DNA of 64,000 nucleotides from Callipepla californica brunnescens. Lineage: Eukaryota > Chordata > Aves > Galliformes > Odontophoridae. Shown here one piece after another: positions 1 through 64,000 of this stretch. The translations under genes and the position numbers were made by a program. Under the pieces are notes generated by a model that was given only the letters and a program-made list of their open reading frames with translations, searched no databases and was not told the DNA's origin. The first letter of the stretch is position 1. Each line of letters begins with the position of its first letter. The stretch covers positions 62,001-126,000 of the forward strand of contig JALIRH010000121.1 in the NCBI GenBank assembly GCA_023055505.1. The letters run 5' to 3'.

Positions 1-856
1 CTAACCCTGTCCCTAACCCCAACCCTACCCTAACCCTAACCACAACCCTACCCTAACCCTAAACCTAACACTAACCCCTAACCCTACCCTAGCCCTAATC
101 CCTAACCCATACCCTACCCTAACACTACCCTACCCTTACCCTAAACCTACTCTAACTCTACCCTTACCCTAACCCTACCCTAAACCTAACTATAACCCTA
201 CCCTAACCCTAACCCTAACCCTAACTCTTACCCTATCCCTAACCCTAACCCCTAACCCTGACACTGACCCTAACCACTAAACCTAACCCTTACCGTAAAT
301 TCTAATCCAACCCTAACCCTAACCCTACCCTAACCCTACCCATACCCCTACCCCTAACCCTAACCTAACCCTAACACTACCCTAACCCTAACCCCTAACC
401 CTAACCCCTAACCGTAGCCCTACCCTAACCCTACCCCTCACCCTAACCCTAACACTACCCTAACCCTAACCCCTAACCCTAACCCCTAACCGTAGCCCTA
501 CCCTAACCCTACCCCTCACCCTAACCCTATCCCTTACCCTAACCCTTACCTATCCCTAACCCTAACCCTAAACCTTAACCCTACCCTAACCCTACCCTAA
601 ACCTAACCCTAACCTTAAACCCTAACCCCAACCCACCAGATCCCTAACCCTAACTCTAACCCTAACCCTACTGATTCCTTACCATAACCCTACCCTAACC
701 CTAACCCTACCCTAAACTTAACCCCTAACCCTAACCCTTACCCTAACCCTAACATTGACCCTATCCCTGACCCTAACCCCTAACCCTAACCCTTACCGTA
801 ACCCCTAACCCTAAACACTAACCCTAACACTAACCCTACACTAACCCTAATCTAAA

Positions 857-891
<35 letters not shown>

Positions 892-3800
892 CCCTACACT
901 AACCCTAATCTAAACTAACCCTAACCCTATTGATGGACCCAAAACCTAACCCTAACACTTACCCTAACCCTAACCCTGACCCTAACCCTGACTCAAACCC
1001 AACCCTTAACCCTGACCCTAACCCTACCCTAACCCTCACTCAAACCCTACCCTTAACCCTGACCCTGACCCTAACCCTACCCTAACCCTTACCTATCTCT
1101 AACCCTACTCTAACCCTAACCCTAACCCTACCCTAACCCTACCCTAACCCTCCAATCTAACCCTAATTCTACTCTAACCCTAACCCCTAACCCTAACCCT
1201 ACCCTAACCCTAATCCCTAATCCTACCATAACCCTGTTGATGGACCCTAATTCTACCTTAACCCTAACCCCTAACCCTAACACTAACCCTACACTAACCC
1301 TAATCTAAACTAACCCTAACCCTATTGATGGACCCAAAACCTAACCCTAACCCTACCCTAACCATAACACTTACCCTAACCGTACCCTAACCCTAACCCT
1401 ACCCTAACCCTCACCCTAACACTACCCTAACACTACCCTAACATTTACCCTAACCCCTAACCCTTACCCTAACCCTTACCTGACCATAACCCTAACACTA
1501 AACCTAACCCTAACCCGTAACCCCAACCCCTAAGCCCTAACCCTAACTCCTAAGCCCTAACCCCACCCTAACCCTAACCCTGCCCCTAACACCTAACCCT
1601 ACCCTAGCCCTATCCTCGCCCTAACCCTACCCTAGCCCTAACCCCTAATTTTAACCCTAACCCCTAACCCTAACCCTACCCTAACCCTAACCCTGCCCCT
1701 AACCCTAACCATACCCTAACCCTAACACTGACCCTACCCCTATCCCTGACCCTAACCCTTACTCTAACCCTTACCTATCCCTAACCCTACCCTAACCCTT
1801 AACCCGAACCCTACCCTAAACCTTACCCTAAACCCTAACCCGAACCCTACACTAACCCTCAAATCTAACCCTAATTCTACCCTAACCCTAACCCCTAACC
1901 CTACCCTAACCCTAACCCTGACTCAAACCCTACCCTTAACCCCGACCCTAGCCCTACCCTAACCCTTACCCTGACACTACCCTAACATTTACCCTAACCT
2001 TTAAACCTTACCTAACCATAACACTAATACTAAAACTAACCCTACCCTAACCCCTAACCCTACCCTAACACTTTCCCTAACACTAACCCTAACCCTGCAC
2101 TAACCGTGACCCTAACCCCCAACCCCAACCCCTAAGCCCTAACCCTAACCCTGCCCCTAACCCCAACCCTACCCTAACCCTAACCCTGCCCCTAACCCTA
2201 ACACTAACCCCTAACCCTACCCTAGCCCTAACCCCTAACCCCTAATTTTAACCCTAACCCTTAACCCTAGCCCTACCCTAACCCTGCCCTAACCCTAACA
2301 CTGACCCTAACCCTATCCCTGACCCTAACCCTTACCTATCCCTAACCCTACCCTAACCCTTAACCCTAACCCTACTCTAACACTTACCCTAACCCCTAAC
2401 CCTAACCCTATCCCTTACCTAACCCTATCCCTACACTAACCCTCAAATCTAACCCTAATTCTACCCTAACCCTAACCCCACCCTAAACCTAACCCTGACT
2501 CAAACCCTACACTTAACCCTGACCCTAACCCTACCCTAACCCTTACCTAACCCTAACCCTACCCTAACCCTAACACTACCCTAACATTTACCCTAACCCC
2601 TAACCCTTACCTAACCATAACACTAACACTAAAACTAACCCTACCCTAACCCCTAACCCTACCCTAACCCTTACCCTAACACTAACCCTAACCCTGCACT
2701 AACCGTGACCCTAACCCCTAACCCCAACCCCTAAGCCCTAACCCTAACCCTGCCCCTAACCCCAACCCTACCCTAACCCTAACCCTCACACTAACCCCTA
2801 ACCCTACCCTAGCCCTAACCCCTAACCCCTAATTTTAACCCTAACCCTTAACCCTAGCCCTACCCTAACCCTGCCCTAACCCTTACCATACCCTAACCCT
2901 AACAGTGACCCTAACACTATCCCTGACCCTAACCCTTACCTATCCCTAACCCTACCCTAACACCTAACCCTAACCCTAACCCTATCCCTTACCTAACCCT
3001 AACCCTACACTAACCCTCAAATCTAACCCTAATTCTACCCTAACACTAACCCCTAACCCCTAACCCTAACCCTAACCCTACCCTACCCCTGACTCAAACC
3101 CTACCCTTAACCCTCCTTAACCCTACCCTAACCCTTACCTAACCCTAACCCTACCCTAACCCTTAACCCTAACCCTACCCTAACATTTACCCTAACCCCT
3201 AACCATAACCCTAACACTAACCCTAACCCTAACCTTACCCTACCCTAACCGTGACCCTAACCCCTAACCCCAACCCATAAGCCCTAACCCCAAACCCTTA
3301 CCAAACCCAAACCCTACCCTAATCCTAACCCTAACCCTGCCCCTAACCCTAACACAAACCCCTAACCCTACCCTAGCCCTACCCTAGAACTAACCCTACC
3401 CTAGCCCTAACCCCTAACCCCTAACCCAAACCCTAACCTTACCCTAAACCTACCCTAACCCTACCCTTACCCTAACTCTAACCCTAACACTAACCCTACC
3501 CTAACTCTTACCCTATCCCTAAAGCTAAGCCCTAACCCTGACACTGACCCTGACCCTAACCCTGACTCAAACCCAACCCTTAACCCTGACCCTACCCTAA
3601 CCCTCCAATCTAACCCTAATTCTACTCTAACCCTAACCCTACCCTAACCCTAAACCCTAACCCTACCATAACCCTATTGATGGACCCTAGTTCTACCCTA
3701 ACCCTAACCCCTAACCCTAACACCTAACCCTAACACCTAACCCTTTGCTAACCCTATTGATGGACCCTAACTGTAACACTAACCCTACCCGTAATCCTAC

Positions 3801-4157
3801 CCCTAACCCTTACCCAACCCTAACCCTAACCCTTACCCTACCCTAACCCTAACCCTTACCCTAAACCTAACCCTACCCTAATTCTAACCCTAACCCTGAC
3901 CCTATCCCTAAACCTAACCCCTGACCCTAACCCCTAACCTTAACCCCTAACCCTAACCCTACCCTTACCCTAACCCTACACCCTTACCCTAAACCCTACC
4001 CTAACCTAACCCTAACCCTACCCTAACCCTAAAACCCTAACCCTACCTCACACCCTACCCTTAACCCTGACCCTAATACTTACCCTAACCATTATCTAAC
4101 CCTAACCCTACCCCATCCCTACCCTACCCCTTAAACCTAACCCTAACCCTACCCTAA
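1..4157. repeat. Degenerate telomeric repeat array, CCCTAA sense (family 1)
   Basis: Almost all of this stretch is CCCTAA and one-base variants (CCCTAC, CCCTGAC, CCCCTAAC). It is not an intact telomere because perfect runs are short. A longer order is visible: marker phrases such as TATTGATGGACCC (near 930, 1226, 1323, 3669, 3751) and CAAATCTAACCCTAATTCTAC (near 1859, 2446, 3021) recur, the latter about 575-590 bp apart. The block near 2240-2820 is followed by a near-copy of itself about 579 bp further on. The whole array is repeated at 59855-63500. No gene is seen. Confidence 0.93.
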
Positions 4158-5141
4158 CGGTGTCAGAATGTGACAGTCACAATATCAAAGTATCACAATG
4201 TCAGAATGTCAGTGTCACAAGGTTAGAATTTCACAATGCCAAAATATCACAATGTGAGAATCTAAAAATGTCACAGTGTCAGAATGTCACAATGCAAAAA
4301 TGAAAGACTGTCACAATACCAGAATGTAAAAATTTCACAGTCAGAATATTACAGTGTCACAATGTCAGAAGGTCGCATTTTCAGAATGTCAGTACGTGAG
4401 GATGTCAGAACGTCACAATGTCACAAAGTGAGAATATGAGAATGTCAGAATAACAGAATGTCAGAATGTGAGAACGAAATGATGTCAGAATGTGATTATG
4501 TGAGAATGTCCGAATTTCAGAATGTCAGAATGTCACAACGTCAGAATGCAAGAATATCAGAATGTCCTAAGTTGAGAATGTCACAATGTATCTGAATAGA
4601 AGAATGTAACATTGGCACAATCTCAGAATGTAACAAAGACATCACATCATAATGTCAGAATGTCAGAATTTCACAACTTCACAATGTCACAATGAGAGAA
4701 TTTCAGAACGCAGCAATGTAACAACCTGAGAATGTCACAATATCAGATTGTCAGAATGTGAGAATGACAAAATGTGAGAATATCACAATATCACTATGCC
4801 AGATTCCCAAAATGCCACGATGTCACAATCTCAGAATGTCAGAATCACAGAATTTGACACTGCGAGAATATCACAAAGTCACAAAGCCACAATGTCATAA
4901 TATCACAATATCACAATGTCAGAATGTCACTATGGCAGATTGTCAGAATGCCAGAACATCAGAAGGTGAGAATATAAGAATGTCAGAATGTCACAATGTC
5001 ACAATGAGAGAATATTAGAATGTCACAATGTCAACATGTCAGAATGTGAGAAAGGGAGAATGTCATGATGTCAGAATGTCTTAATGTCAGAATGTCAAAT
5101 CGTCACAACCTCCCAATTAAAATTCAGGGAATATGACTGTG

Positions 5142-6064
5142 TGTGAAAGACAGAAACTGTTTTTTACTTTTGTTGTCTCAAAGCTTGCTTCATGAGGTCT
5201 TTCTGGCTAGAAGACTCTAATTGACAACTGCTTGGAGAAGCTGATCATCACAAAGGACAATAATACTTGTATGGCACCGAAAGTACTACTCCTGTTGATT
5301 TATCTGTTGGGCCAGATGTGTTGGGTGGGCACAAATCAAACTAATGCCAGAACACGGAGGCAGCTAAAGAAAGCAGGATAGACACCCTGTTGTCCCTACA
5401 AGACAAGCCTCTCTTAAAACAAAACACCCACATGAATGGTGAGGAGCTTTCCTCCTTCAAGGTTTGAAAATTTAAAGCAAAACTGACCTTTAGGTTTAAT
5501 CCCCTCGATAACCAGAGTCTGGAATGTGATGAATATGCATGTGCTATACCTTTAAATAGCTATTCATTTCTCTCTTACGTGCGCATGTTTGGTGAAGCAA
5601 TCCCCCATGTACCCAGCGCGCCGCTTGACAGAACTCATTGGTGTGTCGAGTTGCTCAGTTGGTTTTCTCGACACCACTAAACCAAAGACTTTGAAGAAGA
5701 GACTTTCCTGAGGGAAAAACCTCTTTGGAAGAACCCCCCTGCACAGCGCCTGCTTGCTGCAAAACTTCCCGGCTTTCTCCCATCCCCCGCGGAGACCAGA
5801 CGAATTCCTGAGACCAACGGACTACGGACCTCGCCAGATCCACGGTGCTGATGCTCTCTCTTTCTCTTTCTTGCTTTCTGCCAAGTCTCTTCGCTTTTCA
5901 TCTCTTTTCTATCACCCATCTTCCCTTCCCCATATCCCTAAAAAACTACTTATTGTAATAAACTGGTTGGGCTAAAATTTGAACCATTGCCTTTTAATCT
6001 CACCATCGGGTATACACATACATATAAAGAACCTCATCTCCCTCCTTTATTTTGGAGCGTGACA
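5142..6064 (+). mobile_element. Solo LTR with 5-bp target duplication
   Basis: A 923-bp non-satellite segment starts TGTGAAAG, ends GCGTGACA and is flanked by the direct repeat CTGTG (5137-5141 and 6065-6069). Removing it restores the satellite phrase GGGAATATGACTGTGTCA seen elsewhere in the array, so the insertion boundary is well supported. An AT-rich TATA-like stretch lies near 5545-5560 and AATAAA is at 5957-5962, both on the plus strand, as expected for U3-R-U5. It has no retroviral coding sequence. Short open frames inside it are not considered genes. Its proviral family is not recognised; the 5-bp duplication does not settle the class. Confidence 0.82.
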
Positions 6065-7245
6065 CTGTGTCAAAACGTCACAATGAGAGAATATGAAAAA
6101 GTGAGAACATCACAATGACCGAATGTCAGAATGTCGCAATTAGAAAATCGGGGAATATCAAAATGTCACAACGTCACAATGAGAGATAATAACACCAAGT
6201 GAATGACAATGTCACAGTGTCACAATGAGAGGATCTCAGAATGTCAGAACTTCAAAATGTCAAAATGTCACAAAGTCCAAATATCACAATGACAGAATGT
6301 CAGAATGACAGATTCCCACAGTTTCAGAATGTCAGAATGTGGTAATGAGAGAAAGTCAAAATATCGGAATGTCAGAATGTCACAAGGAGAGAATGTCAGA
6401 GTGTCACAATGCTATAATGTCAAAATGTCAGAACATCAGAAGGTCAGAATATCACAATGTCACAACGAGAGAACCTCAAAATGTCACCAAGAGAGACTGT
6501 CAAACTATCAGAATGTGAGAATGAGTGAATGTCACAATGAGAGATGGCCACAATTTTAGAATGCCAGATTGTGAGAATGTCAGAATGTGAAAACGCCAGA
6601 ATGGGAGTGAGTGAATGTCACAACATCAAAATGTCATAACGTCAGAATGTCAGAATGAACCAATGTGAGAGTGCCTGAATGTCACAGTATGAGAACGTCA
6701 CAATATCACAAATCTCAGAATTTCAGTGTCAGAATGAGAGAATGTCACAATGCCACAATGAGAGAATGTCGCAATTACAGATTATTGATAGATCAGAATG
6801 TCAGAATACGAGAAAGTGAGAATGTCCCAATGTCAGAATATCAGAATGAGGGAAAGAGAGAATGTCATGATGCCAGAATGTCAAATTGTCACAAAGTCAC
6901 AATATCACAATGAGAGAATATCAGAAAGTGAGAATATGCCAGTGAATGAATGACACATTGTGAGAATGTCAGAATGTCAGAACGTCAGAATATCAGAATT
7001 ACAAAATCAGGGAATATGACTGTGTCACAATGTCACAAAGAGAGAATATGAAAAAGTGAGAATATCACAACGACCGAATGTCAGAACGTGACAATGTCAC
7101 AATGTCAGAATGAGGGAAAGAGAGAATGTCATGAAGTCAGAATGTCAACTTGTCACAATGCCACAATAGCACAGTAAGAGAATATCAGAAAGTGAGAATT
7201 ATGACAGTGACTGAATGTCACGATGTGAGAAAGTCAGAATATTAG

Positions 7246-7578
7246 TATAGGGCAAATAACCCCCAAAAAAGCACTCCATGGAAATTGTGCGAAAGGCGGT
7301 ATATTTTAGGTAGGCTTAAGAAAATGGTATACAAACAAGAAGAAAAGAGAGGAGCTCACCTTGATGATGGTCGAGGCTCGCTAATAACTCCAAAAGGGAG
7401 GGATCTCTAACAAGAGAACCTTCCCTGCTGGAGGTCAGCCCTTAAATGGGGTCTTGGCAGAGGTGGAGTCAAACTCCACCCCTTCCAATCACACTCACTT
7501 GTGCCCCTGCAGCTGACTCAGGGCTTGCCTCAGGTGATCAATCAGTGGTTCAGGCCATGATTCAACAGTTCCCATACA
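7246..7578 (-). mobile_element. Short solo LTR with 5-bp target duplication
   Basis: A 333-bp insertion in the 8-bp satellite is flanked by ATTAG (7241-7245 and 7579-7583). Read on the minus strand it starts TGTATGGGAACTG and ends GCCCTATA, giving imperfect terminal inverted repeats with a TG...TA ending. The minus strand carries a TTTAAG TATA-like element (around 7445). No coding potential is seen. Orientation is inferred from the TG start and the TATA-like element. It could alternatively be another small LTR-type non-autonomous element. Confidence 0.72.
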
Positions 7579-9895
7579 ATTAGAATGTCAGAATGTCACC
7601 ATGAGAGTATCTCAGAATGTCACAATGTCAGAATGTCACAACGATAGAATGTCAAAATGGCAGCATGTGTCTGTGAGAGAATGTCACAATGACAGAATAG
7701 AAATATGTCAGAATATAGCAATGAGAGAATGTTAGAATGCAACAATGTCAACATGTCAGAATGGGAGAAAGTGAGAATGTCATGATGTCAGAGTGTCTTA
7801 ATGTCAGAATGTCAAATCTTCACTGTGTCACAACTACAAGATTAGGGAATATGACTGTGTCAAAAAGTCACAATAAGAGGAGATGAAAAAGAGAGAATAT
7901 CACAATGACCGAGTGTCACAATGTAAGAAAGTGAGAATGTGAGAATGTCAAAATGTCAGAATGACAGAATATCACTATGTCACAATGTCGCAATGTCTCA
8001 ATGTCAGAATATCAATATGTAACAGTGTAAGAACGTCACAAATACCACAATGGGAGAATGACAGATTGTCACGATTACAGAATTTCAGAATGTGAAAATA
8101 TCAGAATGTCACAATGTCAGATTCTGAGAATGTCACAATGACAGAATGTCAGAATGAAAGATTTTCCAAATTCCAGAATGTCACTATGTCACAACGTCAG
8201 AATGACGCATTGTCAAAATGCTAGAATGTCACAATGTCACAAGGTGAGAACATCACAATGGCAGATTGTCATAATGCCAGAACATCAGAAGGTGAGAATA
8301 TTAGAATGCCACAATGTCACAATGTCACCATGAGAGTATCTCAGAATGTCACAATGTCAAAATGTCAGAATGAGGGAAAGAGAGAATGTCATGATGTCAG
8401 AATGTCTTAACGTCAGAATGTCAAATTGTCACAACGTCACAATATCACAATGAGAGAATATCAGAAAGTGAGAATATGGCAATGACCGAATGACACATTG
8501 TGAGAATGTCAGAATGCCAGAATGTCAGAATGTCACAATGTCAAAATGTGTGAATGTCTGAATGTCACCATGAGAGAGAGTCAGAGTTTTACAATGTCAC
8601 AATGTGAGAATGTCTGAACGTCAGAATGAGGGAGAGTTAGAATTTCAGAATGTCACAGTGTCACAATGTCATCATGTCACAATATCAGAATGTTGCATTG
8701 TCACAATGTGAGAATGACAGGTTGTCACAATTCCAGAATTTCAGAATGTCAACATGTCTGAATGTCACAATGTCACAATTTCACTATGTCACAACGCTAG
8801 AATGTCATAATATCAGAAAGTGAGAATATCACAATGGCAGATTGTCATAATGCCAGAACTTCAGAAAGTGAGAATATTAGAATGTCACAATGTCACAATG
8901 TTACAATGTGAGTATCTCAGAATGTCACAATGCCAGAATATCAGAATGGCAGAATATGAGAAAGTGAGAATGTCACAATGTCAAAATGTCAGAATGAGAG
9001 AAAGAGAGAATCTCATGATGTCGGAATGTCTTAATGTCAGAATGTCAAATTGTCACAACGTCACGATATCACAATGAGAGAATATCAGAAAGTGAGAATA
9101 TGACAATGACCGAATGACACAATGTGAGAACGTTAGAATGTGAGAATGTCAGAATTGGAGAATGTCACAGAGTCACAATGACAGATTGCCACAATTTCAG
9201 AATGTCAGTGTATCACAATGCCACAAAGTCACAATATCAGTATGTCATGAAGATAGAATGTCACAATGACAACATATGACTGTGACAGAACGTCACAATG
9301 TCAGATGATAAATATGGCCGAAAATCACAATGAGAGAATGTTAGAATGTCACAATGTTAACATGTCAGAACGTGAGAAAGTGAGAATGCCACAATGCCAC
9401 GATGTGAGAATCTCACAATGTCACAATGAGAGAGAGTCAGAATTTCACAGTATCAGAATTTTGCATTGTCACAATGTGAGAATGACAGATTGTCACATTT
9501 CCAGAATTTCAGAATGTCACAATTCCAGAATTTCAGAATGTCCAAATATCTGAATGTCACAATAGCAGAATGTGAGAGTATCACAATGACAGAATGTCAG
9601 AATGACAGGTTGTCACAATTCCAGAATGTCACTATGTCACAATGCTAGAATGTCAGAATGTCAGAATGTGAAAATAGCACAAGGGCAGGTTGTCATAATG
9701 CCAGAACTTCAGAATGTGAGAATATTAGAATGTCATAATGTCAGAATGGGAGAATGTCACAACGGCAGGTTGTCATAATTCCAGAAGTTCAGAATGGGAG
9801 AATATTAGAATGTAACAATGTTGCAATGTGACAATGAGAGTATCTCAGAATGTCACAATGTCAGAATGTCAGAATGCCAGAATAAGAGAAAAGAA

Positions 9896-12800
9896 AGGTA
9901 TGAGGAGGCTATGGGGAAGCTATGGGGCAGCTATTGGGCAGCAGTGGGGCAGCTATGGGGCAGTAGTAGGGCAGCTATAAGGCAGCTATGGGGCAGCAGT
10001 GGGGCAGCTATGGGGCGGCTATGAGGAAGCCATTGGGCAGCTATGGGGCAGAAGTGAGGCAGCAATCAGGCAGCAGTGAGGCAGCTATGAGGAGGCTATG
10101 GGGCAGCTATGGGTCAGCTATCGAGAGGCTATGGGGCAGCTATGGGACGGCGATGAGGCAGACATGGGGCAGCTATGGGGGAGCAGTGAGGCAGCTATGG
10201 GGAGGCTATGGGGCAGTAGTTGGGCAGCTATAGGGTGGCTATGGGGAAGCCATTGGGCAGCTATGGGGCAGTAGTGAAGCAGCTATGGGTCAGTAGTTTG
10301 GCAGCTATGACGAGGCTATGGGAAGGCCATGGGGAAGCGATGGGGCAGCTCTGAGGCAGACAAAATGTAGCTATGGGGGAGCAGTGAGGCAGCTATGGGG
10401 TGGCTATGGGGCAGTAGTGGGGCAGCTATGGGGCAGCTATGAGGTAGCCATGGGGCAGCTATGGGGAAGCAGCGAGGGAGCTATGGGGTAGCAGTGAGGC
10501 AGCTATGATGAGGCTATGGGGAGGCTATGGGGCAGCCACGGTGCAGCTATGGGGCAGCAGTGGGGCAGCTATGGGCAGCAGTAAGGAAGCTATTGAGAAG
10601 GCTATGGGGGCAGCTATGGGGTGGCTATGGGGCAGCTATAGAGCGGCAATGTGGCAGTAGTGGGGCACCTATAAGGCAGCTATGGGGCAGCAGTGGGACA
10701 GCTATGGGGCGGCTATTAGGCAGCCATGGGGTGGCAATGGGGCAGCAGTGAGGCAGCTATGGGGCGGCTATGGGGCTGAAGTGGGGCAGCTATGAGGAGT
10801 CTCTTGAGAGGCTATGGAGCAGCTATGGGGCAGCAGTGGGGTAGCAGGAGGAGACTATGGGGAGGCTATGAAGCAGGTATGGGGCAGCAGTGGGGCAGCT
10901 ATGGGGCGACTATGGGGCAGCAGTTGAGCAGCTATGGGGCAGCCATGGGGCAGCTATGTGGCAGTAGTGAAACAGCTATGGTGTAGCTATAAGCGAGCCT
11001 TGGGGCAGCAAGGGGCAGTAGTAAGGCAGCTTTGGGGCAGCAGTGGGGCAGCTATGATGAGACTATGGGAAGGCCATGAGGAAGCTATGGGGCATCTTTG
11101 AGGCAGACAAAAAGTAGCTGTGGGGCTGCAGTGAGGCAGCTATGGGGCAGCTGTGGGGCAGCTATTGTGTAGCAGTGAGGCATCTATGAGGAGGCTATGG
11201 GGAGGATATGAGGCAGCTATGGGGCAGAAGTGAGGCAGCTATGGGGTGGCTATAGGGCAGCAGTGGGGCAGGTATGGGGCAACAAAGAGGCAGCCATGGG
11301 GCAGCAGTGGGGCAGCTTTGAGGCTACGGGGCGGCTATGGGGCAGTAGTGGGGTAGCTATGGGGCAGCAGTGAGGAAGCTAAGGGGAAGCAATGGGGCAG
11401 CTTTGAGGATGCTATTGGGAAGCCATGGGGCAGCAATGGGGCGGCTATGAGGCAGCGACGGGGAAGCTATGGGGCAGCAGTGAGGCAGGTATGGGGCAGT
11501 AGTAAGGCAGCTACGGGGCAGCAGTGGGGCAAATATGAGGAGGCTCTGAGGAAACTATGGGGCAGCTATGGGGCAGCAGTGAGGCAGTTATAGAACAGGT
11601 ATGAGGCACTTATCAAGCAGCTATGGGTCAGCTATGAGGAGGCTATGGGGCAGATGTGGTGCAGCAGTGGGGCAGCTAAGGCAGCTATGGGGAGGCTATG
11701 GGGCAGCAGTGTGGGCAACTATGAGGAGACTATGGGGAGGCTATGAGGCAGCTATGGGGCAGTAGTCGGGCAGCTATTGGACGGCTATGAGGCAGCCATG
11801 GGGCAGCTATGGGGCAGCAGTGAGACAGCTATGGGGCAAGTATGGGGAGGCTATGGGGCAGCGACGGGGTGGCTATGGGGCAGTAGTGGGGCAGCTATGG
11901 TGAGGTTATGAGGCAGCCATGGGGTAGGTATGAGAAACCAGTGAGGCAGCTATGGGGCAGTAGTGGAGCAGCTATGAGGCAGCGGTGGGTCAGCTATGGG
12001 GTGGCTATGAGGCAGCAGTGGGTCAGCTATGGGGTGGCTATGAGGCAGCCATGGGGCAGCTATGGGACAGCAGTGGGGCAGCTATGAGGTAGCCATGGGG
12101 CAGCTATGGGGAAGCAGCGAGGGAGCTATGGGGTAGCAGTGAGGCAGCTATGAGGAAGCTATGGGGAGGCTATGGGGAGGCTATGGGGAGGCTATGGGGC
12201 AGATATGTAACGGCTATGAGGCAGCCACGGTGCAGTTATGGGGCAGCCACGGTGCAGCTATGGGGCAGCAGTAAGGAAGCTACGAGAAGGCTATGGAGGC
12301 AGCTATCAGGTGGCTATGAGACAGCTATGGGGCAACTATGAGGCAGCCGTAGGGCAGCTATGGTGCAGCAGTGAGGCAGCAATTAGGCAGAAGTTGGGCA
12401 GATATGGGGCAGCAGTGAGGCAGCTATGAGGAGGCTATGGGGCAGCTATGGGGCAGCAGAGAGGCAGCTATGGGGCACGAGTGAGGCAGCTATGGGTTAG
12501 CTATGAGGAGGCCTTGAGGAGGCTATGGGGCAGATATGGGGCAGCAGTGGGGCAGCTAAGGCAGCTATGGGAAGGCTATGGGGCAGCAGTGTTGCAGCTA
12601 TGAGGAGACTATGGGGAGGCTATGAGGCAGCTATGGGGCAGCAGTCGGGCAGATATAAGGCAGCTATTGGGAAGCAGTGGGGCAGCTATGGGGCGGCTAT
12701 TAGGCAGCCTTTGGGCACCTATTGGGCAGCAGTGAGGCAGGTATGGGGCAGCTATGAGGACGTTATGGGGCAGCTATGGGGCAGCAGTGGGGCAGCAATA

Positions 12801-14341: not shown

Positions 14342-14344
14342 GGC

Positions 14345-49350: not shown

Positions 49351-49399
49351 GTTACATCATACAAATCATCCCATACATTAGCTGGGGTGGGAGGTGCAA

Positions 49400-51319: not shown

Positions 51320-52148
51320 CTTAGCCACTCCTTCTTTCATCAGAATGCTGGAGGTCTTAAACGACAGTCTGGGCTTACCTCCCAACAAGCATCAAACATT
51401 ACAGCGGTATGTCCCGACTGCCAGAGGCATTCTTTCCCATCAATAGCAGGGGGGGTTAACCCCAGAGATCTGCAGAGCCTCCAGCTATGGCAAATGGATG
51501 TCACACATTACCCATGGTTTGGTAAGCTGAAATATACACATTCCTCGATTGATACTTTTTCCGGAGCTTTATTTTCCTCTTGTCATACAGGAGAAAAGGC
51601 ACGAGATGTTCGCAAGCGTTTGCTGCGTGCTTTTGCTACATTAGGTATCCCTTCCCAATTAAAAACAGATCATGGTCCTGCATATACCTCTGCTGCGACA
51701 AAAGCCTTCCTGGATTCTTGGGGCATTATGCACATCACCGCGATCCCTCATTCCCCTCCAGGTCAATTGAGCGGTCACACCAATCTTTAAAGCGTCTATT
51801 AGCACAACAGAAAGGGGGAATGGGAGCTTCCCCTCCTGAGGAGCGACTACATAAAGCTCTTGATGTTTTCACTTTTTGAATTCTTCTCTGCTAGATACCA
51901 ATCCCCCGATAGTCCGACATTTTAGTTCGAATATCACATTGGAAAGAAGAATCAAGGCTCCGGTGTTGATTCGCCACCCAGAAACAGGTATGATAATGGG
52001 GCCATATCCTCTTGTCACATGGGGGAGAGGTTATGCTTGTGTCTCCACAGGAAAAGGCCCCAGGTGGATTCCTGCGAAGAACGTGAAACCATACCGGGAG
52101 GAACAGACTTCGTTGACAACAGATGAAAACACAACCAAGGAAGGATGA
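51320..52148 (+). pseudogene. Class II integrase
   Basis: The N-terminal zinc-binding HHCC pattern is visible: His pair at 51326 and 51338, and CPDC at 51410-51421. The core has Asp in MDVTHY (51497), Asp in LKTDHGPAYTS (about 51668), and the region with Glu (SIERSHQSLKRLL) in a different frame after a shift near 51755. A second shift at the T-run near 51872 leads to the C-terminal domain (51876-52148) with PYPLVTWGRGYACVSTG and GPRWIPAKNV. All catalytic positions are present but split over frames. Confidence 0.8.
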
Positions 52149-52180
52149 GACCAGCTACTGTATGGACTTGACTTCTTGAA

Positions 52181-53721: not shown

Positions 53722-53855
53722 GTCTGTGGGTCTCTCTGGGTCCCGCTATGGGTCCCAATATGGTTTGCTGTGGGTCACTGTGGGTCCTGCTATGGGTCGC
53801 TGTGGGTCTCTATATGCCCCAGGAGATCCCTAAGGGGCTGCAGTTCCCCTCCACG

Positions 53856-53875
53856 CCACCAGGGGAGGGGGCGCT
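53856..53875 (+). promoter_or_regulatory. CTCF-like motif, copy 1 (with insertion)
   Basis: CCACCAGGGG followed by AGGGGGCGCT resembles the CTCF core with a few extra bases inside. A TCACGTGA (USF/E-box) palindrome follows within a few bases. Confidence 0.35.
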
Positions 53876-54167
53876 CTCACGTGATGTCTCTGTGCCTTCC
53901 TATTGCTCTCTGAGGTTTTCTATGGGTCGCTGTGGGTCCCGGCATGGGTTGCTTTGGGTCAAGCTGTGGGTCACTGTGGGTCGCTGTGGGTCTCGCTATG
54001 GGTCACTGTGGGTTGCTGTGGTTTGCTATGAGTCTCTATGGGTTGCTGTGGGTCGCTGTGGGTCACGCTATGGGTCCCAATAGGGTTCGCTGTGGGTCGG
54101 TGTGGGTCCTGCTATGGGTCTCTACGTGCCCCAGGAGATCCCTAAGGGGCTGCAGTTCCCCTTCACG

Positions 54168-54182
54168 CCACCAGAGGGAGCT
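54168..54182 (+). promoter_or_regulatory. CTCF-like motif, copy 2
   Basis: CCACCAGAGGGAGCT matches the CTCF core (CCASYAGRKGGCRS) at all but one position. The adjacent E-box is altered (TCACATGA). Confidence 0.4.
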
Positions 54183-54414
54183 CTCACATGATGTCGCTGT
54201 GTCTCTACGGCTTCCTATTGCTCTCTGTGTTTTCCTATTGGGCGCTATGTGTCGCTATGGGTCCCAATATGCTTCGCTGTGGGTTACTGTGGGTCACTGT
54301 GGATCGCTATGGGTTGCTATGGATCGCTTTGGTTTGCTGTGGGTCCTGCTATGGGTCTCTGTGGGTCTCTAAGGTTCCCAATGGATCCCTAAGGGGCTGC
54401 AGTTCCCCTCCACG

Positions 54415-54429
54415 CCACCAGGGGGCGCT
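54415..54429 (+). promoter_or_regulatory. CTCF-like motif, copy 3 (consensus)
   Basis: CCACCAGGGGGCGCT is a full match to the published vertebrate CTCF core. The neighbouring E-box is altered (TCACGTAA). Confidence 0.55.
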
Positions 54430-55201
54430 CTCACGTAATGTCGCTGGGTCTCTAGGGCTCCTTATTGCTATCAGTGGTTTCCTATTGGGCGCTATGGGTC
54501 GCTGTGGGTCACTATGCGTCGCTATCGATCTCTGTGGGCTGCTACGTTTTGCTGCGGGTCTCTATGGGACGCTATGGGTCACTGTGGGTCTTGCTATGTG
54601 TATCCATGGGTCGCTATGGGTCGATGTGGATCGCTATAAGTCTCTACATGTTGCTAAGGGTTGCAATGGGTCGCTGTGGGTCATGCTGTGGGTGTCTGTG
54701 GGTCCAGCTATGGGTCATTGTGGGTCGCAGTGAGTCGCTACGGGTCTCTTCGGGACGCTATGGGTCACTCTAGGTCCTGCTATGGGTCGCTGTGGGTCGC
54801 TTTGGGTCTCTATGGGTCTCAGTGGGTCTCTGTGGGTCACTGTGGGTTGCTATGGGTCGGTGTGGGTCGCTGTGTGTCGCGGTGGGTCGCTATCGGTCAC
54901 TATTGGTTGTAATCGGTCTCTGTGGGTTGCTGTGAGTCGCTGTGGGCCCCCCTATAGGTTGCTGTGGGTCGGCTGGGTCGCTATGGGTTGCTGTGGATGG
55001 CTGTGTGTCGCTGTGCCTCTATGAGTCGCTATGGGTTGCAGTGCGTCGCAATGGGTCAATGTGGTCTGTTACGGGTCGCTGTGGGTTACGCTGTGGGTCC
55101 CAATATGGTTCGCTGTGGGTCAGTGTGGGTCCTGCTATGAGGCGCTGTTGGTCTCTATGTGCCCCAGGAGATTCCTAAGGAGCTGCAGTTCCCCCTCCAC
55201 G

Positions 55202-55216
55202 ACACCAGGCGGCGCT
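55202..55216 (+). promoter_or_regulatory. CTCF-like motif, copy 4
   Basis: ACACCAGGCGGCGCT keeps the CACCAG and GGCGC parts of the CTCF core. The TCACGTGA E-box follows. Confidence 0.4.
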
Positions 55217-55695
55217 CTCACGTGATGTCGCTGTGTCTCTGTGGCTCCCTCTTGCTCCCTGTGGTTTTCCATGGGTCGCTGTGGATCGCTATGGGTCCCA
55301 ATGGATCGCTGTGGTTCCTGGCATGGGTCGCTATGGGTCAAGCTGTGGGTCACTTTGGGTTGCTGTGGGTGTCTGTGGGTCCAGCTATAGGTCACTGTGG
55401 GTCTCAGTGAGTCGCTGTGGGTCTCTATAAATCGCTGTGGGTAACTATGAGTCTCTATGTGTTTCTATGGGTCGCTGTGGGTCTCTATGGGTCGCTGTGG
55501 GTCCCGCTGTGGGTCACTGTGGGTCGCTGTGTGAGCTATCGGTCTCTGTGGGTTGCTGTGGTTCCCCCTATAGGTTGCTGTGGGTCGGTTGGGTCGCTGT
55601 GGGTCCCGCTATGGGTCGCTGTGAGTCTCTATGGGTCGCTGTGGGTCTCTATGAGTCAGTGTGGGTCACTGTGGGTCAGTGTGGGTCGCTGTGGG

Positions 55696-56700
55696 TCCCG
55701 CAGAAGGCGGTGTGCCCAGAGCGAAGCCACGCCCAGCTATGGGGCGGATGTGGGGCAGCTACGGGGCAGCCATGGGTCACCATGGATCTCCATGGGGTCC
55801 CTACGGATCTCAATGGGGTCTCCACTGATCTCAGTGGATCTCAATGGGGTGGCTATGGGGCAGCTGTGGGGCAGCAATGGGGCACTGACCTATTCCCCTC
55901 AGAATGCCGCCACTGCATCTCCTCCACCTCCTGCGGGAGCACCTCTGTGGGGCAGAACTCTGCCCCACACCTTCACCCCAAACATCCACACCACAGCTCA
56001 GCCCCACAGCGCTGCCCCACATCCCACACATTTGCCCCACATCTCTGCCCCTCATCCCCTGGCCACACAGCTCAGCCCCACATCCCACAGCTCAGCCCCT
56101 CATCCCACACCTGGCCCCAGAGCTCAGCCCTGTGGCTCTGCCCCACACATCTGCCCCAAACCCCACACCTGGACCCACAGCTCAGCCCCACATCCCTCAG
56201 CTCTGCACCACAGCTCAGCCCCTCACCCCACACCTGGCCCCAGAGCTCAGCCCTGTGGCTCTGCCCCACACATCTGCCCCAAACCCCACACCTGGACCCA
56301 CAGATCTGCCCCACATCCCACAGCTCTGCCCCACGGCTCAACCCCAATCTGCACATACCTGCCCCACATCCCACAGCTCTGCCCCACATACCTACCTGCC
56401 CCACAGATCAGCCCCACATTCCACAGCTCTGCCCCATGGATCAGCCTCACATCCCGCAGCTCAGCCCCGCATCTGAGCCCCACATCTGCTCATACCTGCA
56501 CCACACCTCCGCCCCCCAACCGCCACAGCTCTGCCCCACAGATCCACCCCACAGCTCAGCCCCGCATCCCACAGCTCTGCCCCAATCAGTGCACCTGGAC
56601 CCACAACTCTGCCCCACAGCTCTGCCCCAAGCCTGGACCCCACACCCACGACCCCAGCCCCAAATCCCTGCCCCATAACCCCATAACCTGACCCCGGCCC
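55696..56700 (-). other. C-rich minisatellite region, probable intronic DNA of a minus-strand gene fragment
   Basis: The plus strand is dominated by CCCCACAGCTCTG/CAGCCCCACATC-like units. A tandem duplication of 123 bp is visible (ACCTGGCCCCAGAG at 56109 and 56232). Near 55735-55885 a few 11-bp units like those of the 9.9-20.2 kb satellite occur. Read on the minus strand it resembles a short-repeat intron of an avian microchromosomal gene. A 424-codon plus-strand open frame (55417-56691) crosses it together with part of the 10-bp satellite and is an artefact. Confidence 0.65.
55890..55942 (-). pseudogene. Candidate second exon of an unrecognised gene
   Basis: Minus strand: acceptor CCCCACAGAG, then 53 nt encoding VLPQEVEEMQWRHSEGNR (last codon split), then donor AG|GTCAGT. 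It is the only stretch in this C-rich region with protein-like composition. Its phase fits the candidate first exon at 56731-56763. The product is not recognised. Confidence 0.35.
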
Positions 56701-56730
56701 CATAACCGCCCCTCCCGCCCTGCCACTGAC

Positions 56731-56763
56731 CACGTGCTCTGCTTCCAGCTCCGCTTCCACCAT
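56731..56763 (-). pseudogene. Candidate first coding exon of an unrecognised gene
   Basis: Minus strand: ATG at 56763, 11 codons (MVEAELEAEHV), then donor GTG|GTCAGT (56731/56730). It lies about 35 bp downstream of a CCAAT box (ATTGG on the minus strand, 56796-56800) inside a CpG island. Ends in phase 0, compatible with the candidate exon at 55890-55942. The short length makes chance possible. Confidence 0.33.
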
Positions 56764-57110
56764 GCGGCCGCTTCCGGCCCCACGGCACAGCTCGGCCAAT
56801 CACAGCACAGATCGGCAGCGGAAAGGGCGGGGTGTGGGGTAGCGAGGCGGAACAGTGCCACTGGAACGAGGCACGATGACCGGAAATAACTGAAACGTCT
56901 GGGAGCGCGGATTTCCGGCAGCGAGCGGGGCATTGTGGGTAAGGAGGCGGAAGCACGCCTGGAAGTGGGAAACCGGAAGCCAGTGGGAAGCGAGTGGGTG
57001 TGGCCAACGTTAAGCCTCGCATTCGAGCCACGCCCCAACGTGCAATGACCCGAAGTGACCCCGATGTGACGCAAAATGACCGCAAATATCCCAGATTACT
57101 TCCAACACTT
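56764..57110 (-). promoter_or_regulatory. CpG-island promoter with CCAAT, GC-box and ETS sites
   Basis: This is unique, CpG-rich sequence with a CCAAT box (56796-56800), a GC box GGGCGGGG (56825-56832) and several ETS-type sites (CCGGAAAT near 56880, TTTCCGGC near 56910, ACCGGAAGCC near 56972). A GCATTGTGGGTAA element lies near 56931. No TATA is seen. It could act bidirectionally. It is followed at 57145 by the telomeric array. Confidence 0.45.
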
Positions 57111-57144
57111 CTTGGAAGCGCTGCGCCCCAAAGGGCCCCAAAAT

Positions 57145-60100
57145 GACCCCAAACCTAACCCTAACCCTACCCTAACCCTAAAACCCTAACCCTGACTCAC
57201 ACCCTACCCGTAACCCTGACCCTAATACTTACCATAACCATTATCTAACCCTAACCCTACCCCTTAAACCTAACCCTAACCCTACCCTAACCTTTACCCT
57301 AACCCTAACCCTTACTTAACCATAACCCTACCCTAACACTAACCCTAACCCTACCGTAAACCCTATCCCTTACCCTACCCTAACCCTTACCCTAACCCTA
57401 CCCTAATCCTAACCCCTAACCCCAACCCCTAAGCCCTTATCCTGCCCCTAACCCTTACCCCACCCTAACCCTAAACCCAACCCTACCCTAGCCCTAAACC
57501 TACCCCAGCCCTAACCCCTAACCTTAACCCTAACCACTAACCCAAACCCTACCCTAACCCTAACCCTACCCTAACCCTACCCTAACTCTAACCCTAACGC
57601 TTACCATAACCCTAACCCTAAACCTTACCCTAACACTAACCCTACCCTAACCCTAACCCTGACACTGACCCTAACCCCTAACCCTAACCCTTACCGTAAC
57701 CTCTAATCCAAACCTAACCCTAACCCTACCCTTACCTTAACCCTACCCATACCCCTACCCTTACCCCTACCCCTACCCTAACCCCTAACCCTTACCCTAA
57801 CCGTACTATAAGCCTAACCCTGACCCTAACACTGACCCTAACCCTAACCCTTACCCTAACCCTTACCTTTCCCTAACTCTTACCCTAACCCTACCCTAAC
57901 CCTTACCATAAACCTAATCCTAACCCCTACCCTAACATTAACCCTACACTAACCCTGACCCAAACACCTAACCCTAACCTAACACTAGCCCTACCCTAAC
58001 CCTAACCCCAACCCTATCCTTAACCCTAACCCTAACCCTAACTCCTAACCCTACTCTAACCCTAAACCTTAACCTAACCGTAACCCCTGACCATACCCTA
58101 ACCCCTAACCCTAACCCTACCCATACCCCTACCCCTACACTAACCCAACCCCTAACCCTAGCCCTACCCTAACCCCTAAACCTAACCCTAACCCTAAACC
58201 TTAACCCTACCCTAAACCTAACCCTAACCTTAAACCCTAACCCTAACCCACCAGATCCCTAACCCTAACTCTAACCCTAACCCTACTGATTCCTTACCCT
58301 AACCCTACCCTAACTCTAACCTAACCCTAACCCTATTCCTAACCCCAACTTTAACCCTACCCTAACCCTAACCCTTAACCGTAACCCCTGACCCTACCCT
58401 AACCCCTAACCCTAACCCTACCCTAATCCCAACCCAACCCTAACACTAACCCTACCCTAACCCTACCCTAACCCTAACCCCAACCCTATCCCTAACCCTA
58501 CCCTTACCCTAACCTTAACCCTAACCCCTAACCCTTATCCTAACCTTAACCCCTGACGCTACCCTAACCCCTAACCCTAACCCTACCCTAACCCTAACCC
58601 AACCCTAACCCTACCCTAACCCTTACCCTAAACCAAACCCTACCCTAACTCTAACCCTAACCCTTACCCTGACCCTAACCCCTAACCCTAACCCTTACAG
58701 TAACCCCTAACCCTACCCTAACCCTAACCCCTAACCTTAACCCCTAACCCTAAACCCTAACCCTAACCCTACACTAACCCTAATCTAAACTAACCCTAAC
58801 CCTATTGATGGACCCAAAACCTAACCCTAACCCTACACTAACCATAACACTTAACCTAACCGTACCCTAACCCTAACCCTGACCCTAACCCTGACTCAAA
58901 CCCTACCCTTAACCCTGACCCTAACCCTACCCTAACCCTTACCTAACCCTAACCCTACCCTAACATTTACCCTAACCCCTAACCCTTACCTAACCATAAC
59001 CCTAACACTAAAACTAACCCTACTCTAACCCCTAACCCTACCCTAACCCTTACCCTAACACTAACCCTAAACCTACCCTAACCGTGACCCTAACCCCTAA
59101 CCCCAACCCCAAAGCCCTAACCCTAACCCTGCCCCTAACCCCAACCCAACCCTAACCCTAACCCCAACCCTACCCTAACCCTAACACTAACCCCTAACCC
59201 TACCCTAGCCCTAACTCCTAACCCCTAATTTTAACCCTAACACTAACCCTAGCCCTACCCTAACCCTAACCCTACCCCTTACACTAACCATACCCTAACC
59301 CTAAAACTGACCCTACACCATCCCTGACCCTAACCCTAACCCTTACCCTAACCCTTACCTATCCCTAACCCTACTCTAACCCTTTACCCTAACCCTACCC
59401 TAACCCTTACCCATACCCCTACCCCTAACCCCTACATCTAGCCCTACCCTAAGCCTAACCCTTCCCTATCCCTAACCCTTACCCTAACCCTTACCTATCC
59501 CTAACCCTACCCTAACCCTAACCATACCCCTACCCCTAACCCCTACATCTAGCCCTACCCTAACCCTAACCCTACCCTATCCCTAACCCTAACCCTTACC
59601 CTAACCCTTACCTATCCCTAACCCTACCCTAACCCTACCCCTAACCCTACCCTAACCCTGACCCTGACACTAACCCTACCCTAAACCTTACCTACCCCTA
59701 ACCCATAACCCTAACCCATAACCCTAACCCTAACCCTACCCTAACATTTACCCTAACCCTTACCTAACCATAACTCTAACACTAACCCTAAACCTAACCT
59801 AACCCTACCCTAACCGTGACCCTAACCCCTATCCCCAACCCGTAAGCCCAAACCCTAACCCTGTCCCTAACCCCAACCCTACCCTAACCCTAACCACAAC
59901 CCTACCCTAACCCTAAACCTAACACTAACCCCTAACCCTACCCTAGCCCTAATCCCTAACCCATACCCTACCCTAACACTACCCTACCCTTACCCTAAAC
60001 CTACTCTAACTCTACCCTTACCCTAACCCTACCCTAAACCTAACTATAACCCTACCCTAACTCTAACCCTAACCCTAACTCTTACCCTATCCCTAACCCT

Positions 60101-60697
60101 AACCCCTAACCCTGACACTGACCCTAACCACTAAACCTAACCCTTACCATAAATTCTAATCCAACCCTAACCCTAACCCTACCCTAACCCTACCCATACC
60201 CATAACCCTAACCCTAACCTAACCCTAACACTACCCTAACCCTAACCCCTAACCGTAGCCCTACCCTAATCCTACCCCTCACCCTAACCCTAACACTACC
60301 CTAACCCTAACCCCTAACCCTAACCCCTAACCGTAGCCCTACCCTAACCCTACCCCTCACCCTAACCCTATCCCTTACCCTAACCCTTACCTATCCCTAA
60401 CCCTAACCCTAAACCTTAACCCTACCCTAACCCTACCCTAAACCTAACCCTAACCTTAAACCCTAACCCCAACCCACCAGATCCCTAACCCTAACTCTAA
60501 CCCTAACCCTACTGATTCCTTACCATAACCCTACCCTAACCCTAACCCTACCCTAAACTTAACCCCTAACCCTAACCCTTACCCTAACCCTAACATTGAC
60601 CCTATCCCTGACCCTAACCCCTAACCCTAACCCTTACCGTAACCCCTAACCCTAAACCCTAACCCTAACACTAACCCTACACTAACCCTAATCTAAA

Positions 60698-60732
<35 letters not shown>

Positions 60733-63500
60733 CCCTACACTAACCCAAATCTAAACTAACCCTAACCCTATTGATGGACCCAAAACCTAACCCTAACACT
60801 TACCCTAACCCTAACCCTGACCCTAACCCTGACTCAAACCCAACCCTTAACCCTGACCCTAACCCTACCCTAACCCTCACTCAAACCCTACCCTTAACCC
60901 TGACCCTGACCCTAACCCTACCCTAACCCTTACCTATCTCTCACCCTACTCTAACCCTAACCCTAACCCTACCCTAACCCTCCAATCTAACCCTAATTCT
61001 ACTCTAACCCTAACCCCTAACCCTAACCCTACCCTAACCCTAAACCCTAATCCTACCATAACCCTGTTGATGGACCCTAATTCTACCTTAACCCTAACCC
61101 CTAACCCTAACACTAACCCTACACTAACCCTAATCTAAACTAACCCTAACCCTATTGATGGACCCAAAACCTAACCCTAACCCTACCCTAACCATAACAC
61201 TTACCCTAACCGTACCCTAACCCTAACCCTACCCTAACCCTCACCCTAACACTACCCTAACACTACCCTAACATTTACCCTAACCCCTAACCCTTACCCT
61301 AACCCTTACCTGACCATAACCCTAACACTAAACCTAACCCTAACCCTAACCCTTAACCCCAACCCCTAAGGCCTAACCCTAACTCCTAAGCCCTAACCCC
61401 ACCCTAACACTAACCCTGCCCCTAACACCTAACCCTACCCTAGCTCTAACCCCTAATTTTAACCCTAACCCCTAACCCTAACCCTACCCTAACCCTAACC
61501 CTGCCCCTTACCCTAACCATACCCTAACCCTAACACTGACCCTACCCCTATCCCTGACCCTAACCCTTACTCTAACCCTTACCTATCCCTAACCCTACCC
61601 TAACCCTTAACCCGAACCCTACCCTAACCCTTACCCTAACCCCTAACCCTAACCCTACACTAACCCTCAAATCTAACCCTAATTCTACCCTAACCCTAAC
61701 CCCTAACCCTACCCTAACCCTAACCCTGACTCAAACCCTACCCTTAACCCCGACCCTAACCCTACCCTAACCCTTACCCTAACACTACCCTAACATTTAC
61801 CCTAACCTTTAAACCTTACCTAACCATAACACTAATACTAAAACTAACCCTACCCTAACCCCTAACCCTACCCTAACCCTTTCCCTAACACTAACCCTAA
61901 CCCTGCACTAACCGTGACCCTAACCCCCAACCCCAACCCCTAAGCCCTAACCCTAACCCTGCCCCTAACCCCAACCCTACCCTAACCCTAACCCTGCCCC
62001 TAACCCTAACACTAACCCCTAACCCTACCCTAGCCCTAACCCCTAACCCCTAATTTTAACCCTAACCCTTAACCCTAGCCCTACCCTAACCCTGCCCTAA
62101 CCCTAACCATACCCTAACCCTAACACTGACCCTAACACTATCCCTGACCCTAACCCTTACCTATCCCTAACCTTACCCTAACTCCTAACCCTAACCCTAC
62201 ACTACCCCTCAAATCTAACCCTAATTCTACCCTAACACTAACCCCTAACCCTACCCTAACCCTAACCCTACCCTACCCCTGACTCAAACCCTACCCTTAA
62301 CCCTCCTTAACCCTACCCTAACCCTTACCTAACCCTAACCCTACCCTAACCCTTAACCCTAACCCTACCCTAACATTTACCCTAACCCCTAACCATAACC
62401 CTAACACTAACCCTAACCCTAACCTTACCCTACCCTAACCGTGACCCTAACCCCTAACCCCAACCCATAAGCCCTAACCCCAAACCCTTACCTAACCCAA
62501 ACCCTACCCTAATCCTAACCCTAACCCTGCCCCTAACCCTAACACAAACCCCTAACCCTACCCTAGCCCTACCCTAGACCTAACCCTACACTAGCCCTAA
62601 CCCCTAACCCCTAACCCAAACCCTAACCTTACCCTAAACCTACCCTAACCCTACCCTTACCCTAACTCTAACCCTAACACTAACCCTACCCTAACTCTTA
62701 CCCTATCCCTAACGCTAAGCCCTAACCCTGACACTGACCCTAACTCCTAACCCTAACCCTTACCGAAAATTCTAATCCAACCCTAACCCTAACCCTACCC
62801 TAACCCTACCCATACCCCTACCCCTAACCCTACACTAACCCTTACCTATCCCTAACCCTAGCCCTACCCTAACCCTAACCCCTACCCTATCCCTAACCCT
62901 AACCCTTACCCTAACCCTTACCTATCTCTAACCCTACCCTAACCCTTAACCCTAACCCTACCCTAACCCTCCAATCTAACCCTAATTCTACTCTAACCCT
63001 AACCCTACCCTAACCCTAAACCCTAACCCTACCATAACCCTATTGATGGACCCTAGTTCTACCCTAACCCTAACCCCTAACCCTAACACCTAACCCTAAC
63101 ACCTAACCCTTTGCTAACCCTATTGATGGACCCTAACTGTAACACTAACCCTACCCGTAATCCTACCCCTAACCCTTACCCAACCCTAACCCTAACCCTT
63201 ACCCTAAACCTAACCCTACCCTAATTCTAACCCTAACCCTGACCCTATCCCTAAACCTAACCCCTGACCCTAACCCCTAACCTTAACCCCTAACCCTAAC
63301 CCTACCCTTACCCTAACCCTACACCCTAACCCTAAACCCTACCCTAACCTAACCCTAACCCTACCCTAACCCTAAAACCCTAACCCTACCTCACACCCTA
63401 CCCTTAACCCTGACCCTAATACTTACCCTAACCATTATCTAACCCTAACCCTACCCCATCCCTACCCTACCCCTTAAACCTAACCCTAACCCTACCCTAA
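57145..63500. repeat. Degenerate telomeric array, CCCTAA sense (family 1), next copy
   Basis: This is the same family as 1-4157. From 59855 the sequence follows position 1 onward closely, with scattered single-base differences and some block differences. The part 57145-59854 corresponds to array sequence that would precede position 1. Markers TATTGATGGACCC (58803, 60769, 61154, 63041, 63122) and the other family 1 phrases are present. No gene is seen. Confidence 0.93.
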
Positions 63501-64000
63501 CGGTGTCAGAATGTGACAGTCACAATATCAAAGTATCACAATGTCAGAATGTCAGTGTCACAAGGTTAGAATTTCACAATGCCAAAATATCACAATGTGA
63601 GAATCTAAAAATGTCACAGTGTCAGAATGTCACAATGCAAAAATGAAAGACTGTCACAATACCAGAATGTAAAAATTTCACAGTCAGAATATTACAGTGT
63701 CACAATGTCAGAAGGTCGCATTTTCAGAATGTCAGTACGTGAGGATGTCAGAACGTCACAATGTCACAAAGTGAGAATATGAGAATGTCAGAATAACAGA
63801 ATGTCAGAATGTGAGAACGAAATGATGTCAGAATGTGATTATGTGAGAATGTCCGAATTTCAGAATGTCAGAATGTCACAACGTCAGAATGCAAGAATAT
63901 CAGAATGTCCTAAGTTGAGAATGTCACAATGTATCTGAATAGAAGAATGTAACATTGGCACAATCTCAGAATGTAACAAAGACATCACATCATAATGTCA
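63501..64000. repeat. 8-bp satellite, start of next macrorepeat copy
   Basis: The sequence matches 4158-4657 at a constant offset of 59343 with no difference noticed in the stretches compared. It marks the beginning of the next unit and is cut by the window end. Confidence 0.93.

Follow-up and report, generated by a model that had tools for sequence, protein, structure and literature searches.

Is the 64,000-nucleotide stretch examined here, which we call the window (positions 62001-126000 of the forward strand of contig JALIRH010000121.1, or C121, of Callipepla californica brunnescens), one unit of a genuine tandem macrorepeat, or was its repetition produced during assembly? A sequence-only reading had proposed a unit of ~59.3-59.9 kb that combines six satellite families, three truncated proviruses, XPO1-like exons and two promoter-like CpG islands. 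The junction that marks this unit recurs hundreds of times in the assembly (1,085,249,470 bases, 321 contigs), and the window is very likely one unit of a genuine avian macrosatellite of very large size, whose units lie mostly head to tail and would be kept alike by unequal exchange. The array is probably heterochromatic and probably without a host function at the protein level.

The two ends of the window repeat each other as claimed. Positions 1-3672 align with 59855-63501 (89% including gaps), and 4159-4657 are identical to 63502-64000 at all 499 bases, with an offset of 59343. Aligned globally, 1-4657 and 59855-64000 share 3964 columns, with 35 substitutions (10 transitions and 25 transversions) and 10 gap events. 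One gap leaves 587 bp extra on the left, two give the right side 153 and 23 bp more, and the others are 2-29 bp. All of these differences are confined to the degenerate telomeric array, where the sequence-only reading had noticed base differences and block indels. At the array's rate, zero substitutions in the 499-bp flank would have P ~0.006, and thus the array changes faster than its flank. The few transitions and the small indels would be better explained by variant telomeric hexamers being shuffled than by point mutation. The junction between the telomeric array and an 8-bp satellite at 4158/4159 recurs at 63501/63502, making the junction-to-junction distance 59,343 bp.

The window by itself shows only 4.66 kb twice, so whether a whole unit is repeated had to be judged from the neighbouring DNA, which confirmed it. 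When twenty 10-kb stretches of C121 were mapped onto the window, units were found head to tail, and the order of parts is shared between them. Window 21,906-64,000 has its collinear counterpart in C121:1-43,951. A shortened unit of 22.7 kb follows, in which ~42.9-50.3 kb of C121 corresponds to window 3,575-10,997 and then jumps to 48,240. Next come the window's unit and, continuing collinearly, a unit that shows the full order of parts up to ~191 kb. The last unit is normal up to unit position 32,706, and from 219 kb it consists of tandem copies of the telomeric block at 44.2-49.5 kb. In this secondary array (C121:219250-255369), the block 44209-49542 is repeated six times, as detected with a probe from 47.9-49.3 kb, with periods of 5,140 and 5,968 bp. 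The neighbouring DNA is 99.6-99.97% alike in unique segments. A duplication of the telomeric array and its flank alone was considered and is ruled out by the collinear neighbouring DNA.

Copy number was probed with the 38-mer at the junction between the 8-bp satellite and an insert in it (window 5091), allowing at most one mismatch and using the reversed sequence as a control. The probe occurs 306 times forward and 259 times in reverse, 565 times in total, and the reversed control 0 + 0 times. Together with the collinear neighbours on C121, these copies exclude a local assembly duplication. The units are thus tandem and of kilobase scale, and they are alike (98.5-99.97% in 36 pairs), as expected of a macrosatellite. 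All the components that had been proposed are present in the window, as listed here with the strand where one is assigned.

1-4158, plus strand: degenerate CCCTAA (telomeric) array, the 3' part of that of the previous unit, ending at the recurring junction 4158/4159.
4159-9883: 8-bp TGTCAGAA satellite, start of the unit, interrupted at ~5098-6069 and 7250-7580.
5098-6069: insertion in the 8-bp satellite, resembling a solo long terminal repeat (LTR) by eye, without a database match; its left junction is the copy-number probe.
7250-7580: second insertion in the 8-bp satellite.
9908-20209: 11-bp GCTATGGGGCA minisatellite, flanking CpG island 1 on either side.
13951-14790: CpG island 1, promoter-like, GC 70%, CpG observed/expected ratio (o/e) 0.86.
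20179-23327, minus strand: provirus remnant 1, with RVT_1 and RNase H pieces in broken open reading frames (ORFs) and an open piece that is gag-like but has no Pfam match.
25322-25420, plus strand: XPO1 exon Z, 33 codons, in frame, 12 codons shorter than the parent exon.
25737-25920, plus strand: XPO1 exon A.
27319-27425, plus strand: XPO1 exon B.
27804-27998, plus strand: XPO1 exon C.
28744-30101, minus strand: degenerate telomeric block, TTAGGG orientation.
31767-34456, plus strand: provirus remnant 2, with a Gag_p30 end (below the Pfam curated cut-off) and RNase H pieces.
35841-37135, minus strand: degenerate telomeric block, TTAGGG orientation.
37231-43750, plus strand: 592-bp satellite, an A-B-C higher-order repeat, CpG o/e 1.05.
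43778-47857, plus strand: degenerate telomeric block, CCCTAA orientation.
47861-49350, minus strand: degenerate telomeric block, TTAGGG orientation, forming with 43778-47857 the sub-block (5.1-6.0 kb) re-amplified at C121:219-256 kb.
49611-53182, plus strand: provirus remnant 3, with RVT_1, RVT_thumb (below the cut-off), integrase and Avian_gp85 pieces in separate ORFs.
53724-56675: GC-rich minisatellites, first of a 10-bp CTGTGGGTCG type, then of a CCCACAGCTCTGCC type.
56690-57145: CpG island 2, GC 62.5%, CpG o/e 0.88.
57146-63501, plus strand: degenerate CCCTAA array that closes the window's unit.
63502-64000: first 499 bases of the next unit, identical to 4159-4657.

Probes for provirus remnants 1, 2 and 3, the XPO1 segment, CpG island 2, the second insertion and the start of the 8-bp satellite with its LTR-like insertion each detect 4 places in C121:1-256,000. 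CpG island 1 is found in 3, because the contig start cuts the first unit before the island and the shortened unit lacks it. The places of the 8-bp/LTR probe are 22.7, 59.3 and 65.1 kb apart, and the number of 592-bp monomers per unit is 13, 10 and 12.

Unit length also varies genome-wide, as seen from 100 listed junction places, all of them exact matches. Among these, the 85 same-strand spacings have a minimum of 30 kb, a median of 81.8 kb, a 5-95% range of 62-144 kb and a maximum of 320 kb, so that the uniform unit length of a macrosatellite is not seen. Of 53 junction intervals on C76, C79, C81, C49 and C63, 41 hold exactly one listed XPO1 match, and these span 53-146 kb (median 84.9 kb). 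The median spacing is sound. The largest spacings are inflated by unlisted units, because one 238-kb interval has three XPO1 matches and a copy at C63:493170, found by the 8-bp satellite search, is missing from the listed exact junction matches. The length of ~59.3-59.9 kb therefore stands for the window's own unit and fails as a family length, for which the median between listed neighbours is 81.8 kb; the 59.3-kb unit is short for its family, whose unit length is variable, mostly 52-150 kb. Spacing in steps of 5950, 5200 or 1774 bp gave no clear signal (Rayleigh R of 0.16, 0.04 and 0.06, respectively). Incidentally, the orientation of the units flips within a contig at C67:2.17-2.27 Mb and C82:0.84-1.26 Mb, through either real inversions or assembly joins.

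Multiplying the whole count of 565 by the median or mean spacing of the listed exact matches only, the family extrapolates to 46-52 Mb, or 4.3-4.8% of the assembly; at 59.3 kb per unit, the extrapolation gives 33.5 Mb. Other parts of the unit are widespread as well. The first 1142 bases of the 8-bp satellite lie in at least 40 places on 22 contigs (40 of 2133 candidates were scored), CpG island 1 has 643 first-look candidates, 40 of them scored, and the 592-bp core is matched exactly 6761 times (3319 + 3442; control 0), about 12 per junction.

Nine copies of the XPO1 segment from seven contigs, compared in the 36 pairs, were used to gauge likeness within the family. Those on C121 differ from each other at 1-3 of 2872 bases, and those on C76, C79, C81 and C49 differ from C121 by 0.1-0.4%. 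The copies on C47 and C28 stand ~1% apart from these, and 1.5% separates the two. The family therefore has a main group that is uniform, besides at least two groups that have diverged. Over 3.1-3.2 kb beginning with the 8-bp satellite, a further six contigs resemble the window at 98.8-99.6%.

The repeat lies toward one end of several contigs. On C6 (42.15 Mb), unit markers are found from 42.035 Mb on, and samples at 41.85, 41.95 and 42.00 Mb have no match to C121:1-256000. On C28 (10.31 Mb), markers lie at 9.82-9.96 Mb, and samples at 9.60, 9.75 and 9.80 Mb and at the contig end do not match. The listed junctions on C47 (4.20 Mb) are at 3.45-4.18 Mb. C6, C47, C76 and C121 end inside the repeat, and the start of C76 has no match to it. 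The ends of C3 (L066) and C63 (L068) carry a simple satellite of GGGCAAGGCA type, perhaps centromeric, which resembles, and no more than that, the (GCCTT)n that an excerpt of PMC9974502 reports for some centromere cores of chicken.

What the unit carries of XPO1 is a genomic fragment. A single frame, with GT/AG splice signals, runs through exons Z, A, B and C (33 + 162 codons), and the unit lacks all other parts of XPO1. The parent gene has its exon C at C3:65.5 Mb, identical to human in 65/65 residues, and the letters encoded by its exons A-C are the human ones. The alignment of the window with the parent extends over 2.9 kb including introns (84% counting gaps). The window's introns are 1398 and 378 bp, near the parental 1376 and 387 bp, and their presence rules out a processed pseudogene.

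Between window and parent, nonsynonymous divergence (dN) is 0.098 and synonymous divergence (dS) 0.181, and the introns differ by 11.3-12.0%, with 16 gap events across 1733 aligned bases. Because the parent protein is unchanged, all of the amino-acid change falls on the copy branch. The ratio on that branch is near the neutral value of 1 when scaled by dS/2 (P 0.52) and ~1.6 when scaled by the intron rate (P 0.02). All 17 of the fetched copies are free of stops and exon indels in the exons scored, 7 of them having been scored for exons B and C only, as a full exon A was not found in their stretches. One copy, L059, has a damaged donor site. The lack of any exon indel has P ~0.011 at the intron rate. 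On the other hand, 24% of runs in a simulation of neutral decay keep no stop, so that open frames alone are weak evidence. In a genome search with exon C, all 150 scored matches (the best 150 of 785 candidates) are open. Protein-level selection on the copies is possible on these grounds.

A second amplified XPO1-like group, carrying exons D1/D2 that were not seen in the window, has copies on both strands and occurs on C71, C59, C123, C136, C37, C49:1-4 Mb, C47:0.3-1.9 Mb, C3:68.0-68.1 Mb and others. None of its 150 scored matches (of 461) is on C76, C79, C81 or C121. Many of the scored matches show a stop, as does that of the parent, where the match overruns the exon end.

Unlike most other segments of the unit, the 592-bp satellite has retained its CpGs. 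Its monomers are 90-98% alike within a class and 73-85% alike between classes A, B and C, giving the higher-order structure known from centromeric satellites. Its CpG o/e is 1.05 at 45% GC, versus 0.20-0.55 in the measured provirus, XPO1, LTR-like and minisatellite segments and 0.86-0.88 in the two CpG islands. Among ten monomers, transitions at 31 consensus CpGs amount to 3.9%, versus 7.4% at other C/G sites, and thus the CpGs are not lost faster than other sites. The simplest reading would be low methylation of this satellite in the germ line, with conversion or selection as alternatives. The 592-bp core has 0 matches in viral_contigs and, slightly relaxed, 0 in genome_contigs, and its end motif has 0 in viral_contigs. 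A 24-mer of the 8-bp satellite matched one viral contig (L001) that is alike over 30-40 bp only, which we took as chance.

Searches of the window for other elements found no known RNA genes at Rfam gathering scores and, by BLAST in its non-satellite sequence, no LTR pairs. The domains of the provirus remnants are spread over separate ORFs, and the Avian_gp85 match among them points to a bird. An ORF at 24479-24919 (minus strand) resembles a reverse-transcriptase piece of a CR1 long interspersed element by eye, with no Pfam match at E 0.05. At the edge of a telomeric block, 70 bases at 28675-28744 (minus strand) are 90% like the inverted L043:4452-4521 in the fetched parent XPO1 region, perhaps through a shared mobile element.

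We conceive that a composite heterochromatic block captured satellites, proviruses and a piece of XPO1, and could then have been multiplied in tandem. Unequal exchange and gene conversion would maintain the likeness of its units, with the telomeric and satellite stretches perhaps serving as easy pairing partners. Sub-blocks re-amplify inside the unit, as seen in the 592-bp higher-order satellite and the 5.1-6.0-kb telomeric block. We infer unequal exchange because its products are seen in the shortened unit, the variable satellite numbers, the secondary array and the local groups. Several points weigh against this account. All results come from one assembly, and the placement of the array in constitutive heterochromatin, probable as it is, is inferred. 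Between the C121 units, CpG islands 1 and 2 reach a likeness of only 98.4-100%. The listed junction places include 2 orientation flips, 11 of the 53 junction intervals hold no listed XPO1 match and the 238-kb one holds three, and the size estimate applies the spacings of listed exact matches to the whole count.

That haplotype or graph duplication during assembly made a second copy of one or a few real units is extremely improbable. Four contigs end inside the repeat, as they would where assembly fails, and the 499-bp flank is identical in both copies. Against this stand the 565 junction copies and copy-specific differences, namely the ~1% between C47/C28 and the main group, private indels and private numbers of sub-array copies. 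We regard as doubtful, while giving it some weight, a location of the bulk of the array on the W chromosome, with the copies on other contigs as small outliers and the structure otherwise as described. It would agree with the 99.6-99.97% likeness of the copies on C76, C79, C81, C49 and C121, from which C47 and C28 differ, as they do from each other, by ~1-1.5%, and with the chicken W being satellite-rich with tandem amplicons, as an excerpt of PMC9974502 reports; the copies in the end parts of C6 and C28 and on C47 speak against it. The 592-bp satellite could also be a present or recent centromere sequence, the unit then being centromeric or pericentromeric, as its higher-order structure, its undecayed CpGs and the telomeric blocks flanking it on both sides might suggest. 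Chicken centromere cores are indeed described as poorly methylated, some with (TTAGGG)n, in the same source (PMC9974502, in excerpt). However, the first 100 listed core matches are on C6, C20, C27, C28, C37, C40 and C47 with none on C1-C5, and thus the satellite is no general centromere repeat; we consider a centromeric role unlikely.

The XPO1-like exons raise another alternative, in which they would belong to a transcribed, fast-changing germ-line gene family, and selection or meiotic conflict would drive the copy number. Four exons in one frame with GT/AG signals, 17/17 copies without a stop or exon indel (P ~0.011) against 16 gap events in 1733 intron bases, and 150/150 open scored matches to exon C would be in line with such an active amplicon, as would the tie of nuclear-transport genes to a known Drosophila drive system, described in part of PMC8645118. 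On the other hand, the unit has only four exons, the ratio near 1 by dS/2 is neutral and ~1.6 is reached only by the intron rate, 24% of neutral simulations show no stop, the open matches are the best 150 of 785 candidates, and the donor site of L059 is damaged. We hold this alternative quite unlikely. It is likewise improbable, judging from sequence, that the ~50 Mb (extrapolated) are tied to an XPO1-derived amplification made up of the four-exon macrosatellite and a second amplicon with further exons, whose open coding and fast protein change are what a germ-line conflict (drive or suppression) over nuclear export would produce.

If the count holds, 4-5% of the assembly is one composite repeat with units far longer than those of the macrosatellites compared below. 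In its hundreds of copies, CpG decay, the ageing of proviruses, the re-amplification of satellites and concerted evolution can be followed in parallel. A testable prediction on methylation in the germ line follows from the preserved CpGs of the 592-bp satellite, and through the hundreds of XPO1-like exons, germ-line RNA offers a direct test of the drive hypothesis.

A literature search of partial coverage, which is no proof of absence, retrieved no recognised description of this repeat or of XPO1 amplification in birds. The human macrosatellites DXZ4 (3-kb unit) and D4Z4 (3.3-kb unit), as outlined in the source excerpts, also have tandem kilobase-scale units, with variable copy number. However, their units are ~20-fold shorter, and here there are hundreds of copies on many contigs with uneven unit length. 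The chicken Z-macrosatellite has a unit of ~24 kb, shorter than the unit here, and the likeness considered is one of architecture. It is a bird macrosatellite with clusters on several chromosomes, reported on Zq and at the ends of GGA1, 2 and 3 (PMC7397634, in excerpt). In dot-chromosome genes, 'sequence stuttering' is described as local to introns of single genes (excerpt of PMC12954441); locally expanded minisatellite-like motifs occur here around CpG islands 1 and 2, which may suggest a link, although here such stretches repeat as part of a larger unit. Chicken amplicons offer a further comparison, as excerpts of PMC9974502 describe OR29G, of which 386 copies are intact, in dot-chromosome amplicons within pericentromeric heterochromatin, and on the W a HINT1W unit of 5,648 bp that is repeated 52 times. 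Like these amplicons, the repeat combines tandem gene-bearing blocks with satellite DNA in a bird genome, in hundreds of copies. Unlike the 5.6-kb HINT1W unit (PMC9974502), its units are mostly 52-150 kb long and hold six satellites, three proviruses and a partial gene.

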